Of a DNA stretch of 64,000 nucleotides, positions 20,111 through 59,766 are shown piece by piece. The stretch comes from Agelas oroides. Lineage: Eukaryota; Porifera; Demospongiae; Agelasida; Agelasidae. The translations under genes and the position numbers were made by a program. The stretch covers positions 19,037,353-19,101,352 of the forward strand of contig OX422185.1 of NCBI GenBank assembly GCA_949130485.1, written 5' to 3'. Under the pieces are notes generated by a model that ran no database searches, was not told the origin of the DNA, and saw only the letters and a program-made list of their open reading frames with translations. Each line of letters begins with the position of its first letter. The stretch's first letter is position 1.

Positions 20111-20352
20111 CGTGTTGATCAGTACAGTGGGAGGGTGCTAATGACGCCTTCAAAGTCACATGGTCAACTGAGCCTTAGCCTCGTTCCCAGGCTCTCCCCT
20201 TGCCCCGACGAAAAATAAAAATGGAGGGGGAGAGCCTGGGACCGATTCGCACGTGATATCGCGGCTCTGGCACTAACCATTAAATAACCTGAAACGTCAC
20301 TCACGTGAAGACCGCGAAGGAGCCGCGAAGTACTCTAAGCTTAGGAGTTTGT

Positions 20353-20659
20353 TAGTCTCGCGGAGCCAGACTCTCACACGAAAAGCGGGAGAGAGTCTGG
20401 TGACACTCGCATATTGAGTTGGTGTAATAGGTCCAGGAATTTCTGGGACCGATAATTGACCATAATTGGGTTAGTGCAGCTGCGTGTTTGAAGGTGGTCT
20501 GGCTTCAATGTCACTTCCATGACTTCCTTGTCAATCGAACACTTGTCCGCACCTACTTAATTACCTACTGACTTGCTGACAGTGCAACACCAACTCAATA
20601 TGCGAGTGTCACCAGACTCTCTCCCGCTTTTCGTGTGAGAGTCTGGCTCCGCGAGACTA
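20353..20659. mobile_element. Nested MITE, TAGTCTCG ends, perfect 9-bp TSD
   Basis: A 307-bp element starts TAGTCTCGCGGAGCCAGACT and has inverted termini of about 73 bp that include GGGAGAGAGTCTGGTGACAC. Direct repeats GGAGTTTGT flank it at 20,344-20,352 and 20,660-20,668. Non-coding. Confidence 0.92.
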
Positions 20660-20931
20660 GGAGTTTGTTACTACAACTCGTTTATTGTTGTGTAGCTATG
20701 TTGGAGCTTTAAAATGTGGTTGTGAGTTTATTTTGTACGCCAGAGTGTAGCGCTAGCCAACTAAAGTCTTTCTTCATAGCCTCGTAGCAATTTTTTTAAA
20801 GCGGAACATGGTAACAGTAAATAGGCAAAGTCTTACCTACGTACTGGGTACTTCTCCGCCGTCGCTGGTGTTTGACCCGTGCCGAGGTCTCACCGACGCA
20901 CTTGTTTCAGTAGTATATCCAGGTGTATATC

Positions 20932-21254
20932 TAGTCTCGTGCCCCGCCCGCGCGCGCCTCCCGGCGAGAAACGGTCTGGTGAACGAAGTCGAATTTCTTG
21001 GGCTTATTACCCAAAACGGGTAATGACCGATGAGATCGCGAGATCGGTAATTATTACGTAGCACTTCCCTTACAACAGTAAAATTTGTTCATATCTATTC
21101 GAGTATCCGTACCTTTTTTGAGCGGGTTGGCCGCAAAATGTTTTGATCGTTGCTAGGTTACAATGTCGCAAAAGCTTGCGCTAGCCCAAGAAATTCGACT
21201 TGGTTCACCAGACCGTTTCTCCTCGTGAGAGGGTGGGGTCTGGGGACGAGACTA
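20932..21254. mobile_element. Nested MITE, TAGTCTCG ends, perfect 9-bp TSD
   Basis: A 323-bp element with inverted termini that run through GAGAAACGGTCTGGTGAAC and AATTTCTTGGGC. Direct repeats GTGTATATC flank it at 20,923-20,931 and 21,255-21,263. Open frames across it are by-products of the inverted repeat. Confidence 0.92.
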
Positions 21255-21441
21255 GTGTATATCTGTTCGAGTCAGCCAATCACGTGGCTGCATAATTGCG
21301 TCACGACTTTTGTAATTATTGCTGTGACGTCTACGTGCTGCGATATCACGTGCGAATCGGTCCCAGGCTCTCCCCCTCCGTTTTTATTTTTCGTCGGGGC
21401 GAGGGGAGAGCCTGGGAACGAGGCTACCTGAGCCTAGCTAG

Positions 21442-28687: not shown

Positions 28688-29248
28688 ACCTCCTTCAAAA
28701 AAGCTACAAATGTAGTGAATACCTCCTTCAAAAAAGCTACAAATGTAGTGAATACCTCCTTCAAAAAAGCTACAAATGTAGTGAATACCTCCTTCAAAAA
28801 AGCTACAAATGTAGTGAATACCTCCTTCAAAAAAGCTACAAATGTAGTGAATACCTCCTTCAAAAAAGCTACAAATGTAGTGAATACCTCCTTCAAAAAA
28901 GCTACAAATGTAGTGAATACCTCCTTCAAAAAAGCTACAAATGTAGTGAATACCTCCTTCAAAAAAGCTACAAATGTAGTGAATACCTCCTTCAAAAAAG
29001 CTACAAATGTAGTGAATACCTCCTTCAAAAAAGCTACAAATGTAGTGAATACCTCCTTCAAAAAAGCTACAAATGTAGTGAATACCTCCTTCAAAAAAGC
29101 TACAAATGTAGTGAATACCTCCTTCAAAAAAGCTACAAATGTAGTGAATACCTCCTTCAAAAAAGCTACAAATGTAGTGAATACCTCCTTCAAAAAAGCT
29201 ACAAATGTAGTGAATACCTCCTTCAAAAAAGCTACAAATGTAGTGAAT
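28688..29248 (+). repeat. 33-bp satellite, 17 identical or nearly identical copies
   Basis: Exactly 17 units of 33 bp starting ACCTCCTTCAAAAAAGCTAC and ending AAATGTAGTGAAT. Because 33 is a multiple of 3 and several frames lack stops, both strands show long repetitive ORFs; these have no independent support. A lone partial unit in inverted orientation lies at about 32,833-32,853, on the far side of the 29.3-32.8 kb element. Confidence 0.95.
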
Positions 29249-29265
29249 ACTATTTCTGCATTGCA

Positions 29266-38247: not shown

Positions 38248-38627
38248 TAGCCTCGTTCCCAGGCCTCCCCCGTTTTCGTTCTTCAGTTTGCGTTCAGTTA
38301 ATACATGGAAGCGGAAGAGCGGTGAAAAACGGGGAAGGCCTGGGAACACCTATCACGTGAATGACGTTCGGTGGATGTGAGGTGGACGTATGGGGGGCGG
38401 TGCCCATCTTACAAATTTTTGTGCAATAAACCATAGAGCGAGTTTCTTACCAGTGGAGTCGAGTACTGCCGATCTCATGAACGTCTGGGGTCCTAGCTAT
38501 CGTTGGAGCACTCAATGATGAAGTCTAGTACATTATTTGAACGTGGACCCCTTCCCCCATATGTCCACCTTGCATCCACCAAATGTCATTCACGTGATAG
38601 GTTTTCCCAGGCCTGGGAACGAGGCTA
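38248..38627. mobile_element. TAGCCTCG-family MITE, subfamily with GGTGGAYGYRAGGTGG interior
   Basis: Each end is a hairpin (TTCCCAGGCCT...AGGCCTGGGAA) followed by TATCACGTGAATGACGTTC. The interior matches 50,658-50,999, including CATCATTGAG in reverse and the AATAAACC.AGAGCGAG phrase. The right terminal hairpin is shortened. The flanking 9-mers do not match. Confidence 0.8.
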
Positions 38628-39080: not shown

Positions 39081-41400
39081 GTACTAGTTATTGACCACTT
39101 CAAGTGCCACAAGCTTGTGGCGCGAGAATGTGGTTAATAACTAGTTTGTTGCATGATGTTATGTGCTTTTATTAAAGTAATAAAATAAATGGCTTGATTA
39201 TAAAGACAGTGAAAATGTAGTGCTATGCGGTATTAGTGTAATCATTGTGTTCCTTTACTCTCCACTTTGGTTAGTGGGAGAAACACAGCTCCTGACCCAG
39301 GTGGAGGGTCAAGTGGGAAAAGGTGATTTATTGAGAATGTGCCACAGACATCCATAATTTAGACTGCACATCACAAAGCTTCCCTGCTTCTGATACTGAC
39401 AAACCAGTGGAGTAGTCTGGGCACGAGACTACCAGTGGAGTAGTCTGGGCACGAGACTACCAGTGGAGTAGTCTGGGCACGAGACTACCAGTGGAGTAGT
39501 CTGGGCACGAGACTACCAGTGGAGTAGTCTGGGCACGAGACTACCAGTGGAGTAGTCTGGGCACGAGACTACCAGTGGAGTAGTCTGGGCACGAGACTAC
39601 CAGTGGAGTAGTCTGGGCACGAGACTACCAGTGGAGTAGTCTGGGCACGAGACTACCAGTGGAGTAGTCTGGACACGAGACTACCAGTGGAGTAGTCTGG
39701 GCACGAGACTACCAGTGGAGTAGTCTGGGCACGAGACTACCAGTGGAGTAGTCTGGGCACGAGACTACCAGTGGAGTAGTCTGGGCACGAGACTACCAGT
39801 GGAGTAGTCTGGGCACGAGACTACCAGTGGAGTAGTCTGGGCACGAGACTACCAGTGGAGTAGTCTGGGCACGAGACTACCAGTGGAGTAGTCTGGGCAC
39901 GAGACTACCAGTGGAGTAGTCTGGGCACGAGACTACCAGCGGAGTAGTCTGGGCACGAGACTACCATTGGAGTAGTCTGGGCACGAGACTACCAGTGGAG
40001 TTATGCTTGTGTATGAGGTTAGCTCAGATGACTAGCTAGCTAGCTAGTATGTCTTGCATTGATTTGCTGTCTGGATAATTATTTCTTGATCTCTAACTTT
40101 TCAATTTTTTCACGACCCAATTGGAGATGTCTGTCATTATGGCCTCTACCTCCCCTCAGATCCAGCATAACGATAAATCCAACCATAGTGTGAATTGAAT
40201 CATCGAGGTAAGCAGTGTGGGATTTACCTGCACAATGAATGTGTAGTTGAATTGTATGCCATTCATCGAGAAAAGAACTTCTCAGATATGATAGCAGTTC
40301 TCAGGAAGTTGTTTCATTCATGAGCATAGCTGTAAGTATATGAGTAATTGTTTCCTTATAGTTTGCCTTCTTCATTACAGCCCATTTACTTATTAGAGAT
40401 CTGCTTATTAATGGATACTGCTGCATTATACCAGCATACCATTACATGGCCGTGGCAAGCGGTCGGGCTGGTCGGGTTTTGGCCCGACCACTTTTTCGCA
40501 GACTAAATGTGCACGTACGCACTTTCAATACAAGTGAAGTCATACGTATAAGAACCAGTAAGCTGAGCCATCTCTGAAAACAGCCACCCATCATTGTGCA
40601 AATTTCACTGACAGAAAGGTGACGTTGCGTTCGGATATATAGCCATTTTGGTTTACTCGATGGCCATTTTTTACTGCGACGAAGCCCGTGCTGCCCGTGG
40701 TAGGTGTGCGCAACTAAGTTTATATGCGGAATCTGAAATCACTATTCTCGTTCCCCAGGTCCCGTCCAGCTTGCCCTCGTTTGCCGTGCCAGTGATGGAA
40801 AGCTGGGCGGGAGCCATGTACAGCTAAGAAGCGATCTCCGAGCAAATTTTTTGCTGCAGGGGCATGGCTTCCATATGTAGCTACTTCGTGCACTAAGTTA
40901 CACGCAATCTGTGATCACTACGTCACAGAGAGTACGTGTAGCAACTATTGAAATTCTGTTTGCTTAGAATTGCAGAACATATCAGATTTGGGGCCTAAAA
41001 ATGGCCTCAGAAACAATCTCCTATCGTCTAATGCAGCAAAATTTTTCTGGGGGGCATGCAGCCACGATGGACTTGGAAATACAAAATTGTATCAAGCGTA
41101 GATCGTCGTTGAAAAGTCATTGGGTAGGATGAAACCTTCTTCCATCACGCACGTAGAACTCTCACAGCTTGGTGCAACTCACAGGTCAGTCTAGCAGCGT
41201 TGCAATGGCCGACCTACCAACGAATTTTGAATTTCGAATTTCAAAAATAAATTTGACGGCAATGCGTTAGTTGCCATAGGAATAAATTACCAGTGACGTA
41301 AATGAGAATATATCTTACATAACATCATGCAACAAACTAGTTATTAACCGCATTCTCGCGCCACACAGCTTGTGGCACTCAAGCGGTCAATAACTAGTAC
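39081..41400. mobile_element. 2.3-kb TIR element containing the 28-bp array
   Basis: Inverted termini of about 85 bp begin GTACTAGTTATTGACC and include GCGAGAATGYGGTTAATAAC and TTTGTTGCATGATGTTATGT. GTAC is palindromic, so a target duplication cannot be separated from the terminus. The interior holds the 21-copy array (39,404-40,000), a GGTCGGGCTGGTCGGGTTTT patch near 40,460 and a decayed MITE-like palindrome at 40,745-40,815. No transposase ORF was found. Confidence 0.7.
39404..40000 (+). repeat. 28-bp minisatellite, 21 copies, built as 9-bp TSD + 19-bp element
   Basis: The array reads CCAGTGGAG, then TAGTCTGGGCACGAGACTA, repeated 21 times, and closes with one more CCAGTGGAG (39,992-40,000). 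The 19-bp part is an inverted repeat with TAGTCT/AGACTA ends like those of the TAGTCTCG MITEs. The 9-bp part has the exact length of that family's target duplication. Variants are few (one GGACACG, one AGCGGAG, one ATTGGAG). Confidence 0.95.
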
Positions 41401-43160: not shown

Positions 43161-44598
43161 ATGGAAGACGAACTAGACTCCCTTCTCTCGCAACTTGACC
43201 CTCAAGAACTGTCATCGCACTTCGACTTGTACAATGACCCCACCCACTCACGTGAATCACAGCCACGCCTCGGTCTCGGGCCGTCATCCACTAATGAGCC
43301 CCTCCCCTCTCCGTGCACAAGCGACAACCATTTTCATACGCTGAAGACAGACAGACCGCGAGGTCAAAGAAGCCAGGAAGAAAGCTGTTCCTAAGAATAC
43401 CGACAAGAACACCAGCTGGGCTGTGAACATTTGGAAAGAATGGAGTGCTCACCGCCGCAAAGTGTGCACTTCTTTCACCGAGTGGCCGACTCATCTCCTG
43501 ATAACGGAACCATCACAGCTGGACTACTGGCTAAGCAAGTTTGTGCTGGAGACCAGGAAGGGCAATGGTGACCATTATCCACCTGACACTCTGTACAGCA
43601 TTTGCAGTGGATTGCTGAGGTACATCCGAGAGACAAGGCCACAGATGAATATTTTTAAAGATCCTGTATTTGCCGGATTCCAGAGAACCTTGGACAGCGA
43701 AATGAAACGGTTACGTGCACTTGGTCTTGGAGTCAAAAAGAAGCAGGCAGAACCAATCACCATTGAAGAAGAAGACCTGCTTTGGGAGAAGGGCTTCTTG
43801 GGAGACGCAAACCCTCAACAACTCCTAGACACAATGCTTTTCCTCTGTGGAGTCCACTTTGCTCTTCGGAGTGGTGAAGAGCATCGCAGTCTCCAGCTGT
43901 CACAGTTGGAGTTGGTGTGCCCAAAAGATGGACGTGCTCACCTCATTTACACCGAAAACTACTCCAAAAACAACCAGGGAGGCTTGCTACATCGCAAGGT
44001 CAAACCTAAAGCTGTGACTTGTTATGCAAATGAGTCAAATCCCAATCGGTGTCTTGTTCACTATTTTCAAAACTATCTGAAGCACCGTCCAGCAGATTGT
44101 TCTACCTTCTACTTGACTCCACTGAGAAAGATCAAGGGTGACATATGGTACAGCAAAATGCCTGTTGGTCATAACACACTGTCAGGAACTGTTGCTCGTG
44201 TATGCAAACAAGCAGGCATTCCTGGCTTCAAAACTAACCATTCACTTCGAGTGACTAGTGCTACTCGCCTCTTCCAGAGTGGAGTTGACGAGCAACTGAT
44301 TATGTCCCACACTGGACACAGGAGTGTTGATGGTGTTCGCTCCTACAAGCGAGTTTGTGAAGACCAGAAAAAATCTGTGTCTGACGTCCTAAACTCCGCA
44401 AGTAATGGACATTCAGAAGCCTACTGTGTGCAAGAAAAGCCAGGAAGTCCCAAGAAGATGAGACTCAATGAACTCCCTGTTACAAGTTATCATCACGCTG
44501 CTTTGTCACAAGAAACCATGAATGCATCATCATTCTTTAAGCCTACTTTTAATTTTGCTGGCTGTTCATCTGTAACTATCAACTACAACATATCCTAG
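43161..44598 (+). CDS. Crypton-type (DUF3504-like) tyrosine recombinase, one frameshift
   Basis: The start is probably ATG 43,161 (MEDELDSLLSQLDPQELS). Its frame stops at 43,394. The main frame, open from 43,345, gives EVKEARKKAVPKNTDKNTSW and runs to the stop at 44,598, so one 1-2 nt shift lies at about 43,345-43,394. Numbered from the GTG codon at 43,423, the catalytic set looks complete: R149 (ALRSGEEHRSL), K182, H273 and R276 (NHSLRVTSATRLF), H299 (HTGHRSVDG) and Y308 (RSYKR). The family resembles Crypton recombinases and the related KCTD1/ZMYM-type domains of animals. It catalyses DNA strand exchange through the tyrosine. No introns. Codon use looks normal. Apart from the shift, which could be a sequencing error, the protein seems intact. 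Confidence 0.85.
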
Positions 44599-52233: not shown

Positions 52234-53007
52234 GTGAGTGTCCGTGGTTGTGATTGTTAACTAGTCAGATGACGTGGGGCGTGAAAATTTCCCAATCTAC
52301 GGTATACTGTGTGCAGTTATAAGCCAAACTTGATAATGCATCATAGTAAGTCCTCACCAAAGGTAGGTATCACAAATTGCATGCAGTAACCCGGCTTTCT
52401 CCAGCCAAGGCAGCTACTATGGCTACACATGAATAGTTGTTTTTTTTATGAGCTAAGGGATTAGGATTCAACTATGTGGCTGATTGTTATCAAAAACAAA
52501 CATTGTCAAGTGTAGCTGTTGTGAATACAGATTAGAGATGCATACCTCGTATATGCCAAAGAAAGGTTATTTGGTTTCTTGTGTCACTTTGGAGCCAGTT
52601 TAATGTCATTACCTTCTGTCAAGAACAAGGCTAGAAGTGGTATACAGTCACACTATGACATACCACTTCATGACATATGGCTTGCAAATACAGCTTCTTT
52701 GTTTGGTGTTGCAAGTAATTTAGGAACATTAACATTAGCTAGGGAACATTACCATTAGCCATAGTGTGGGATGTATACATTAGTTACAAAAATACTTTGT
52801 TTTTTCTGCAAAACTTTTGCATTAATGCAAGGTACACAAATAGCTGGTACGCTAATACGGGTGTGTGCCCAGTTATGATTACAAAAACAGAGGTGCAACA
52901 AGTGAATGGATGGTGTGTGCTGTAAGTGCTTTGTGAGGTAAACAGAACCAGAGCTAGGTACAAAAGATGACCAACATTGATGTTGACCATGCACATAGTA
53001 TAGCCTA

Positions 53008-53306
53008 GATTGACCTCATACCCGGGCCATGAAGTGGTTTGGGAACGAGGCTAAGATTGACCTCATACCCGGGCCATGAAGTGGTTTGGGAACGAGGCTA
53101 AGATTGGCCTCATACCTGGGCCATGAAGTGGTTTGGGAACGAGGCTAAGATTGGCCTCATACCTGGGCCATGAAATGGTTTGGGAACGAGGCTAAGATTG
53201 ACCTCATACCCGGGCCATGAAGTGGTTTGGGAACGAGGCTAAGATTGGCCTCATACCTGGGCCATGAAGTGGTTTGGGAACGAGGCTAAGATTGGCCTCA
53301 TACCTG
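53008..53306 (+). repeat. 47-bp array of a mini-MITE, six full copies
   Basis: The unit is RCCTCATACCYGGGCCATGA, then AGTGGTTTGGGAACGAGGCT and AAGATTG. It holds the two ends of a TAGCCTCG-type element facing each other (CCTCATACCYGGG and GGGAACGAGGCTA). A seventh copy is cut after the first 12 bp. Units of two types (ACCTCATACCC and GCCTCATACCT) alternate irregularly. Confidence 0.93.
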
Positions 53307-53910: not shown

Positions 53911-54537
53911 TAGCCTCGTTCCCAGGCTCTCCCCACGCGCGAACGAAAAATCGAAAGGAATCGAAAGGGGAGAGCCTGGTAAAATTTATCACGTGAGAAA
54001 CGTCATAGGTAGAGAGAACTTAATTACATGTGGGCGAACGAATGAACTCGCCCACGCTGTATGGACAGAATACAGTTGCGATAGCTTTATGGCCGACAGA
54101 ATGGGACTGGACGGCACTATGCTACATTACCTGGCAGTACGGAAAGCTATGGTGAGCTTACACAGACCCGTACATTCGAAAATCACGCTAACCTACTCGC
54201 TTACCTGGCAAACTGACCGCTGTACACCCCGGAGAATGGCTTTCAAGGCGCTATTAAACGCCAAGGCGGCCCCGGCTTTGCTCAAGTTTTCTCTGCGCTT
54301 ATTGTTCAGAAAAAAAAACTGCCAGAACGGGCTCCTACTAAAAAACAGCTACGTGTACTGTCGATTATCGATCAACTACGTGCGTGGGCACATTGACGAT
54401 CCGCCTACGCTCAATTAAGTCCTCTCTACCCTTCTCTCTACTCCTACGTCACTCACGTGATGAATTATTCCAGGCCCTCTACCGCTTTTCCGTACTGCAA
54501 GCGACGGAAAGCTGGGTGGGGCCTGGGAACGAGGCTA
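53911..54537. mobile_element. 627-bp TAGCCTCG-family MITE, perfect 9-bp TSD
   Basis: Ends TAGCCTCGTTCCCAGGCTCT and GGCCTGGGAACGAGGCTA. The direct repeats CCCACATCT lie at 53,902-53,910 and 54,538-54,546. The interior matches 21,442-22,113 in reverse. The 141-codon open frame across it is not conserved as a protein in the other copy and is rejected. Confidence 0.92.
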
Positions 54538-54901
54538 CCCACATCTAAGGAGTTGTATTTGAGTTATACCCATGCTGCTCTAATTAGCTTATCATACAGC
54601 ACATGACTGATGGGCTTTATAGCCTGAAGGGGAAGTATAGTAAAGCTGGTGGGGACAACACTGAGTGGCAAGTGTCTCAGGTAGTGTGTAGTGGAGTGGT
54701 TTAGGGAGGCAGCACCTGTCTTGGAAATAGCAACCAAGGATATTGTGATAAGTAGCTTGTGAAAACTATGACAGCACTTGTACTACAGTATGAATACCAC
54801 TTGCTGCCCTAATGAATATCTCCTTTGGTTAAGTGTTTGCTAAACACTGGCCATTAAAATAGTTGTCTTAACTGCTATAAATATTGCTTTCATTCATCTG
54901 T
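54472..54901 (+). repeat. 430-bp segmental duplicate, copy 1 (partner 56,418-56,847)
   Basis: Includes the last 66 bp of the MITE, its right TSD and 355 bp of flank. I found one difference from the partner (C to T at about 54,891). Confidence 0.95.
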
Positions 54902-56417: not shown

Positions 56418-56847
56418 AGGCCCTCTACCGCTTTTCCGTACTGCAAGCGACGGAAAGCTGGGTGGGGCCTGGGAACGAGGCTACCCACATCTAAGGAGTT
56501 GTATTTGAGTTATACCCATGCTGCTCTAATTAGCTTATCATACAGCACATGACTGATGGGCTTTATAGCCTGAAGGGGAAGTATAGTAAAGCTGGTGGGG
56601 ACAACACTGAGTGGCAAGTGTCTCAGGTAGTGTGTAGTGGAGTGGTTTAGGGAGGCAGCACCTGTCTTGGAAATAGCAACCAAGGATATTGTGATAAGTA
56701 GCTTGTGAAAACTATGACAGCACTTGTACTACAGTATGAATACCACTTGCTGCCCTAATGAATATCTCCTTTGGTTAAGTGTTTGCTAAACACTGGCCAT
56801 TAAAATAGTTGTCTTAACTGCTATAAATATTGCTTTTATTCATCTGT
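56418..56847 (+). repeat. 430-bp segmental duplicate, copy 2
   Basis: It starts in the middle of a MITE right end (AGGCCCTCTACCGC) and continues through the same CCCACATCT flank as copy 1, so the duplication happened after MITE insertion. The offset is a constant 1,946 bp. Confidence 0.95.
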
Positions 56848-58878: not shown

Positions 58879-59478
58879 TCTCAGTTGTGTATAATTTACT
58901 TCTGTATACAATCTTAGCTTACTGTATACTTACGTTTGCTCACTGTGTCCATGCTTGTATTTATTGGCATTGCTTTGAACACTTTGCAGACGAGGTTGGT
59001 ATGAGATTTATTAACCTGATATAAAGCAATCTGATTGGTCAGAATTACCAACCATGTTACAAATTATGTAGACCCCTCAGTTTCATTGTATAACATATCT
59101 GTAATTGGAGTACCTTAGAGATACTAGTAGAAAATGATTTACTGTTTCACTAGTGTTCTCTATTTCTGTGCAGTTCTTGAGATGTAGGCTGAGGTGGGAC
59201 CACTCATCTTCCATTCCCCTCCTTCATGCACCCACAAGACATCCCAGCTGAACCACGCCAGCAACCAGGTCAAACTGAGACTGGCTTCTTTGTTCACCAT
59301 CATTTATATACTAGTATGTTGCATTACTGCATGCACTATAATTGAAAAAAGTGTACAACAAATTGTTTGCACAATTCGTTTCAAAAGAAATACAGATTAT
59401 ACAAACTATTAATTATAAAACAAGTCTGCCTGCAAACACGCAATATCTCACATTTGGACAAAGAAGCACGAAAAGGAT

Positions 59479-59510
59479 TAGCCTCGTTCCCAGGCTCGTG
59501 AACGAGGCTA
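59479..59510. mobile_element. 32-bp nano-MITE, perfect 9-bp TSD
   Basis: TAGCCTCGTTCCCAGGC followed by TCGTG and AACGAGGCTA. Direct repeats GAAAAGGAT flank it exactly (59,470-59,478 and 59,511-59,519). It consists of little more than the two terminal recognition sequences. Confidence 0.92.
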
Positions 59511-59766
59511 GAAAAGGATATGAAACACAACAAAAAATACAACTTCAACAGTGTCCTTTTAATTTGTAGAACTTACAATTAGTGTTACGTACCAGCAAGA
59601 AAATAGCTAGTGGTTAGAAATTAACAAAATCTTAAAAACATTAAAAAGGGTTAGACAATGATAATATGTTCCTGTCTTGCAACACCAAGTAGCTTCCAAA
59701 AAATTGAAAGAAGAAAAGTTCCCATTGGCAAGATAAAAATAAGTTGGTTGTGATGTGCATGTGCAT

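Follow-up and report, generated by a model that had tools for sequence, protein, structure and literature searches.

A 28-bp minisatellite in the genome of the sponge Agelas oroides appears to have grown out of a DNA transposon remnant together with the target-site duplication (TSD) that flanks it. In the reading we favor, to which we give a probability of about 75%, a MITE shrank to a single terminal inverted repeat (a solo TIR), and the two 9-mers of its TSD seeded tandem duplication, yielding a TSD-phased solo-TIR minisatellite. A preliminary description of this DNA had proposed that one tiny insertion flanked by its TSD expanded between the two 9-mers. The outline of that proposal is supported, but the core of the unit turns out to be one TIR and not a MITE.

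The array occupies 597 bp of the window, by which we mean the whole 64,000-nucleotide stretch of DNA that was analyzed. Its length equals 21 × 28 + 9, and it divides into 22 nine-mers and 21 cores, the closing 9-mer being the twenty-second; we refer to this as the N+1 rule. Each 28-bp unit consists of the 9-bp CCAGTGGAG followed by the 19-bp TAGTCTGGGCACGAGACTA, and this holds for all units except for three single-base variants: GGG to GGA in unit 10, CCAGCGGAG in unit 20, and CCATTGGAG in unit 21. The division into 9 + 19, the 21 repeats and the presence of the 9-mer at both ends of the array had been noted from the start, and all were confirmed. TRF reports a period of 28, 21.4 copies, and 98% matches. 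The 20 internal junctions of the array are 9 bp long, which is the size of the TSD. As for the core, the 19-mer had been called an inverted repeat; it is indeed palindromic, but imperfectly, with 6-bp arms around a 7-base loop in the centroid structure. Folded as DNA, it forms a weak hairpin of -2.2 kcal/mol, and the 37-mer reaches -7.2 kcal/mol. Coordinates of the array, its parts and related elements of the window are collected in Table 1.

Table 1. Features of the array and of related elements, in positions of the window
Feature	Position	Strand	Basis
28-bp minisatellite, 21 units and a 22nd 9-mer	39404..40000	+	TRF, unit-by-unit division
Opening 9-mer, taken as the left target-site duplication	39404..39412	+	Family TSD length of 9
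First 19-bp core, a complete terminal inverted repeat (solo TIR)	39413..39431	+	Genome matches, flanks
Unit 10, G>A in the core	39656..39683	+	Unit division
Units 20 and 21, one 9-mer change each, diverged 3' edge	39936..39991	+	Unit division
Closing 9-mer, taken as the right target-site duplication	39992..40000	+	Unit division
Related 307-bp MITE (20353-20659), exact 9-bp TSD GGAGTTTGT twice	20344..20668	.	TIR-pair scan
Related 323-bp MITE (20932-21254), exact 9-bp TSD GTGTATATC twice	20923..21263	.	TIR-pair scan
32-bp miniature element (59479-59510), exact 9-bp TSD GAAAAGGAT, sister TAGCCT family	59470..59519	.	TIR-pair scan

The core of the unit is the TIR of a family of DNA transposons and MITEs with 9-bp TSDs. 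The 259-Mb assembly contains 371 exact matches to TAGTCTGGGCACGAGACTA, 20 of them in the array, where one unit is mutated; a reversed-pattern control had no genome matches. The 19-mer forms the terminal inverted repeats of MITEs, with inverted pairs that span 36 to 586 bp, and the larger copies (330 to 586 bp) have 9-bp direct repeats outside. In a sister group, TAGCCT replaces TAGTCT. We then scanned 276,528 bases, with the window array and L008 (which overlaps L007) left out, for TIR pairs, defined as TAGYCT with at most one mismatch and 12 to 700 bp apart. Exact flanking duplications of 9 bp were found at 48 pairs, while lengths of 6, 7, 8, 10, 11, 12, and 13 bp gave 4, 2, 2, 0, 0, 1, and 0. 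Since the loci outside the window were chosen through matches to the 19-mer, densities taken from them are biased; the window itself was chosen independently, and it holds six TIR pairs with an exact flanking duplication. Two of these are the TAGTCTCG-ended MITEs in Table 1, and the 9-bp duplications that the preliminary description had attributed to such MITEs of the window are exact in both.

TSDs of Mutator-like (MULE) transposons are 8 to 11 bp long, and the 9-bp TSD of this family fits that superfamily. The MULE transposase profile PF10551 has at least 119 matches in the genome. Together, the TSD length and these matches suggest Mutator-like parents for the MITE family. None of the 12 PF10551 loci inspected, with flanks of only about 1.5 kb, had a transposase enclosed by a TIR pair and TSD; at one (L163), a 62-bp MITE lies beside the transposase and not around it. 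Nor did the other loci inspected in this analysis yield an autonomous element.

Members of the family form a graded series of sizes. There are 55 distinct elements with an exact 9-bp TSD, counted with L008, L122, the window array and identical pairs of element and TSD left out, and their lengths descend to 19 bp, including 586, 408, 330, 111, 75, 64, 56, 54, 48, 45, 40, 36, 33, 32, 29, and 19 bp. A 38-bp entry (L083) is a locally duplicated site overlapping a 19-bp solo. The 19-bp class corresponds to one complete TIR. Very short TIR elements were seen at L010:2393-2413 (21 bp), at L010:7511-7539 (29 bp), in the window at 59479-59510 (32 bp), and at L012:4759-4794 and L118:51-86 (36 bp each). 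Their 9-bp TSDs are exact in all five apart from the 21-bp element, which has one mismatch. To our knowledge, these elements of 21 to 36 bp are among the shortest flanked by TSDs. The 32-bp element of the window belongs to the sister TAGCCT family and shows how far shrinkage has gone there.

The single-copy state, a lone 19-mer between two copies of a 9-mer, also exists. The sister 19-mer TAGCCTGGGVACGAGGCTA has 134 matches in the genome, and among 86 occurrences inspected (78 distinct contexts), nine have the form 9+19+9 when up to two mismatches are allowed in the 9-mer pair: three with exact 9-mers, four with one mismatch, and two with two. About 0.1 such sites are expected by chance with random 9-mers. 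This count omits the array loci L117, L122, L127, L130, L139, and L140. When the spacing was offset as a control in the same 78 contexts, the nine sites appeared at 0, L185 at -4, L079 and the C7 family at -3, and L147 at -1, with nothing at -2 or at +1 to +4; L147 has an exact 8-bp duplication in place of 9 bp. For the array's own 19-mer, no solo was found among 95 occurrences inspected outside the window, one site being counted twice (L053 and L163), and the longest exact duplication adjacent to them is 5 bp. Sites with less than 14 bp of flank were omitted from the scan for adjacent duplications, as were L117, L122, L127, L130, and L139 where the sister 19-mer was concerned and L008 in the case of the array's own. 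In all, one TIR stands between target duplications at the nine sister sites, at a dimer (L005), and in the window array. The single-copy form anticipated by the preliminary description is therefore represented at other loci, in the sister 19-mer, but not at the array locus.

Copies of one site both with and without the insert were found in the C7 family. Four copies (L148-L151) carry the 19-mer between GGTACAAAT and ACAAAT, and a search with joined flanks found a single GGTACAAAT with no insert at L173, L174, and L176. At L175, a 7-bp remnant lies between GGTATAAAT and GGTACAAAT. Because the remnant in L175 is still flanked by GGTATAAAT and GGTACAAAT, a 9-bp duplication was most likely made at first, and L148-L151, which are three bases short in the right 9-mer, would have lost these bases. 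In principle, L173, L174, and L176 might also have lost their insert by clean deletion and not be ancestral empty sites. This solo site is slightly decayed and is distinct from the nine described above.

An empty site had been anticipated as well, and it is at this other locus that insert-free copies occur; the assembly holds no empty or single-copy paralogous version of the array locus, whose joined flanks match only the locus itself. A copy of CCAGTGGAG at 38450, about 950 bp upstream, was considered as the true left TSD of a larger element and rejected, as no TAGTCT follows it. We likewise rejected a dispersed 28-mer family carrying CCAGTGGAG: at up to three mismatches, the genome has 25 matches, and 21 of them are within the array. 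In three of the matches outside, the first 9 bases resemble the inner flank of MITEs. Another, L141 (C2:690105), has the exact 9-mer and a diverged core, without a second 9-mer.

The two-copy state is found at L005, which reads GGCCAGTTG-19-GGCCAGTTG-19-GGCCAGTTC. Its two cores are identical, and its 9-mer is unrelated to that of the array. The third 9-mer, GGCCAGTTC, has one mismatch, and the N+1 rule is kept. Other copy numbers had been looked for by the preliminary description, and this dimer supplies one, with a different 9-mer and at another locus. A decayed 28-bp array (L139/L122) has 9-mers like CATGTGGAG. Because CATGTGGAG, taken from L139, is within two mismatches of CCAGTGGAG, the L139 array and the window array may, judging by these letters, share an origin. 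A 28-mer satellite lacking the 9-mer boundary rule would have spoken against the earlier proposal, and none was seen; apart from the window array, only L139 has more than two 28-bp units in tandem, and its decay is too advanced for the rule to be read there.

Searching the genome with AGRCTA-N9-TAGYCTGGG gave 30 matches, of which 19 belong to the window array, 1 to L005, and 10 to eight other places. All eight were inspected, and repeated 9-mers occur at L122/L139 only. With N10, the same pattern gave 11 matches at nine places, four of which have identical letters. Outside the window array there are thus nine places with 9-bp junctions and nine with 10-bp junctions, or six if identical copies are merged, and this lack of an excess at 9 bp speaks against the favored reading. 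By the N9 pattern, which overlooks other decayed arrays, the clean 9-bp arrays number two, or three if the decayed L139 is counted. A looser TAGTCT search had 284 matches, and among the matches listed, which are mostly inner MITE sequence, only the window array and L005 have a 9-bp spacing.

Tandem TIR cores also occur with other spacers. L127 (C10:1320000-1321800) has 34-bp units made of the TIR core and a 15-bp spacer, and in contrast to the window array it opens without that spacer. L185 (C12:401485-401585) has 24-bp units with the 5-bp spacer GGTGG, and at L140 neighboring cores share TA, giving a 17-bp period. In the TAGCCT families, GAGGCTA-N(0-25)-TAGCCTGGG has 49 matches at 32 places by hand count. 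Spacers of 3 to 5 bp are the commonest class of junction there (17 of 32 places), with letters that mostly differ between places, and a 9-bp spacer occurs at 1 of 32 (L126), where there is no array. Since tandem cores come with such varied spacers, the TIR core seems to favor tandem growth regardless of the spacer. The N+1 rule and the 9-bp length set the window array and L005 apart as probably TSD-seeded. The preliminary description saw a direct route from transposon to satellite; such a route is supported, but because periods of 17, 24, and 34 bp and spacers of 3 to 5 bp also occur, it is one among several here, and TSD seeding as such had already been published. Elsewhere in the window, at 53007-53306, a 47-bp unit that opens with a TIR-like stretch and closes with a TIR (GGGAACGAGGCTA) is repeated in tandem; this array was considered as another case of the 9-bp rule and set aside, as its letters seem not to follow the rule.

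We infer the following order of events at the array locus, with the mechanisms of deletion and expansion. A transposon with TIRs of the TAGTCTCG family would have inserted itself at CCAGTGGAG, leaving a copy of this 9-mer on either side. The element would then have shrunk to a single 19-bp TIR. Because the TIR is internally palindromic, the left outer and right inner TAGTCT are direct repeats, and a deletion between them would leave exactly TAGTCTGGGCACGAGACTA within intact TSDs; judged from its letters, the solo-TIR core is most simply a deletion remnant of this kind. Next, the 9+19 segment would have been doubled as replication slipped from one 9-mer to the other, or through end-joining at these 9-mers, possibly aided by the weak hairpin acting as a weak pause site. 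Unequal exchange or slippage among the tandem units may later have brought the array to 21 copies and kept its interior homogeneous. We take the array to be a neutral by-product and propose no function for it.

Three other explanations have to be weighed against this one. Successive elements might have inserted into the same 9-bp target, followed by unequal exchange. A published double-insertion model predicts TSD-sized junctions, as set out in the available portions of two papers (PMC12628747, PMC9659126), and at L028 the 9-bp TSD of a 56-bp element abuts the end of another element. However, the L028 9-mer is absent from the far side of the neighbor, and for the array the model requires either that both elements were reduced to an identical 19 bp or that an element this short transposed. 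Nor do the units look like whole elements inserted independently: they are 19-bp cores, with three single-base variants among 21. Since L005 is a dimer of identical 19-mers and 19-bp solos exist singly, one duplication suffices, and we regard repeated insertion as unlikely. It is also conceivable that the array is an ordinary minisatellite, begun by chance end-joining of a 28-bp segment that comprised a TIR and 9 flanking bases, the 9-mer being no TSD. The tandem spacers of 15 bp (L127) and 5 bp (L185), the shared TA at L140, the spacers of 3 to 5 bp in the sister family, and the opening of L127 without its spacer are in keeping with such an origin. Yet chance duplication gives as many spacers as cores, whereas the window array and L005 have N+1, and the length of their spacer equals a TSD length that was measured independently. 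These two points make a chance origin distinctly improbable in our view.

A more radical possibility is that the 19-bp palindromic core is itself mobile, a micro-transposon that makes 9-bp TSDs, and that the array is one of its insertions, expanded. The 19-mer type does lie between differing 9-bp duplications at 9 loci, and one further site has insert-free copies. Against this, element sizes grade upward from 19 bp, and a deletion that joins the TAGYCT repeats of paired palindromic TIRs yields the same 19-mer. It is also difficult to see how 19 bp could accommodate a paired-end complex. We consider self-mobility of the core very improbable; a milder idea, that the formation of solo TIRs and their TSD-seeded growth make up a standing pathway by which this genome goes on producing minisatellites, is likelier.

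McGurk and Barbash reportedly described tandem transposons that share target duplications as precursors of satellites. Such precursors resemble the array in their TSD-sized junctions and later unequal exchange, but as presented in the available parts of PMC12628747 and PMC9659126 they consist of whole elements joined by double or multiple insertion, whereas the array is built on a 19-bp TIR for which a single duplication is enough. The same portions of these reviews cover several models of the passage from transposon to satellite, including TSDs as seeds of tandem arrays. In Paramecium, solo TIRs of Thon were speculated to arise by recombination between internal repeats, in the manner of solo LTRs, and its TIRs, like those of our family, are palindromic with short internal direct repeats; Thon differs in being a ciliate Tc1/mariner element, with no tandem expansion described in the available text (PMC3464196). 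Tetris of Drosophila virilis, assigned to Mutator by its authors, has TIR-derived tandem repeats (TIR-220) and TSDs of 8 to 10 bp, but its 220-bp repeat grows inside the TIR, and in the accessible sections the TSD is not in the unit (PMC4079207). Xstir and miDNA4 of Xenopus are likewise MITEs turned into tandem repeats; they differ in that their repeats are attributed to sequence inside the MITE or to a repeat that was captured, and the excerpts available mention no TSD in the unit (PMC12628747, PMC9659126), while a table gives a TIR for the Xstir repeat (PMC9659126). Each of the three ingredients, the seeding of arrays by TSDs, satellites that derive from TIRs, and the solo TIR, has already been published, as far as the accessible portions of these sources go. 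In open-licence literature, partly available, we recognized no minisatellite whose unit is a TSD plus a solo TIR. What the sponge genome adds is the likely steps from transposon to satellite side by side in one assembly, as insert-free, single, two-copy and 21-copy states at different loci, with the TSD of each stage serving as its own ruler for where the unit starts. Because these stages coexist within one genome, it makes a good test case, and because each has its own TSD, the first duplication step, which is usually erased, becomes testable in relatives and populations.

The window holds further repeats. Tandem elements suspected at 53911/56483 turned out to be a duplicated segment (54490-54620 and 56430-56520), in which a 627-bp MITE is represented by its right end together with its TSD. 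At 28688-29250, a 33-bp unit is repeated 17 times, with 100% matches in TRF and more than 200 amino acids open in several frames. Finally, an ORF at 43345-44595 (+) matches DUF3504, QRICH1, and phage-integrase and is presumably Crypton-like.
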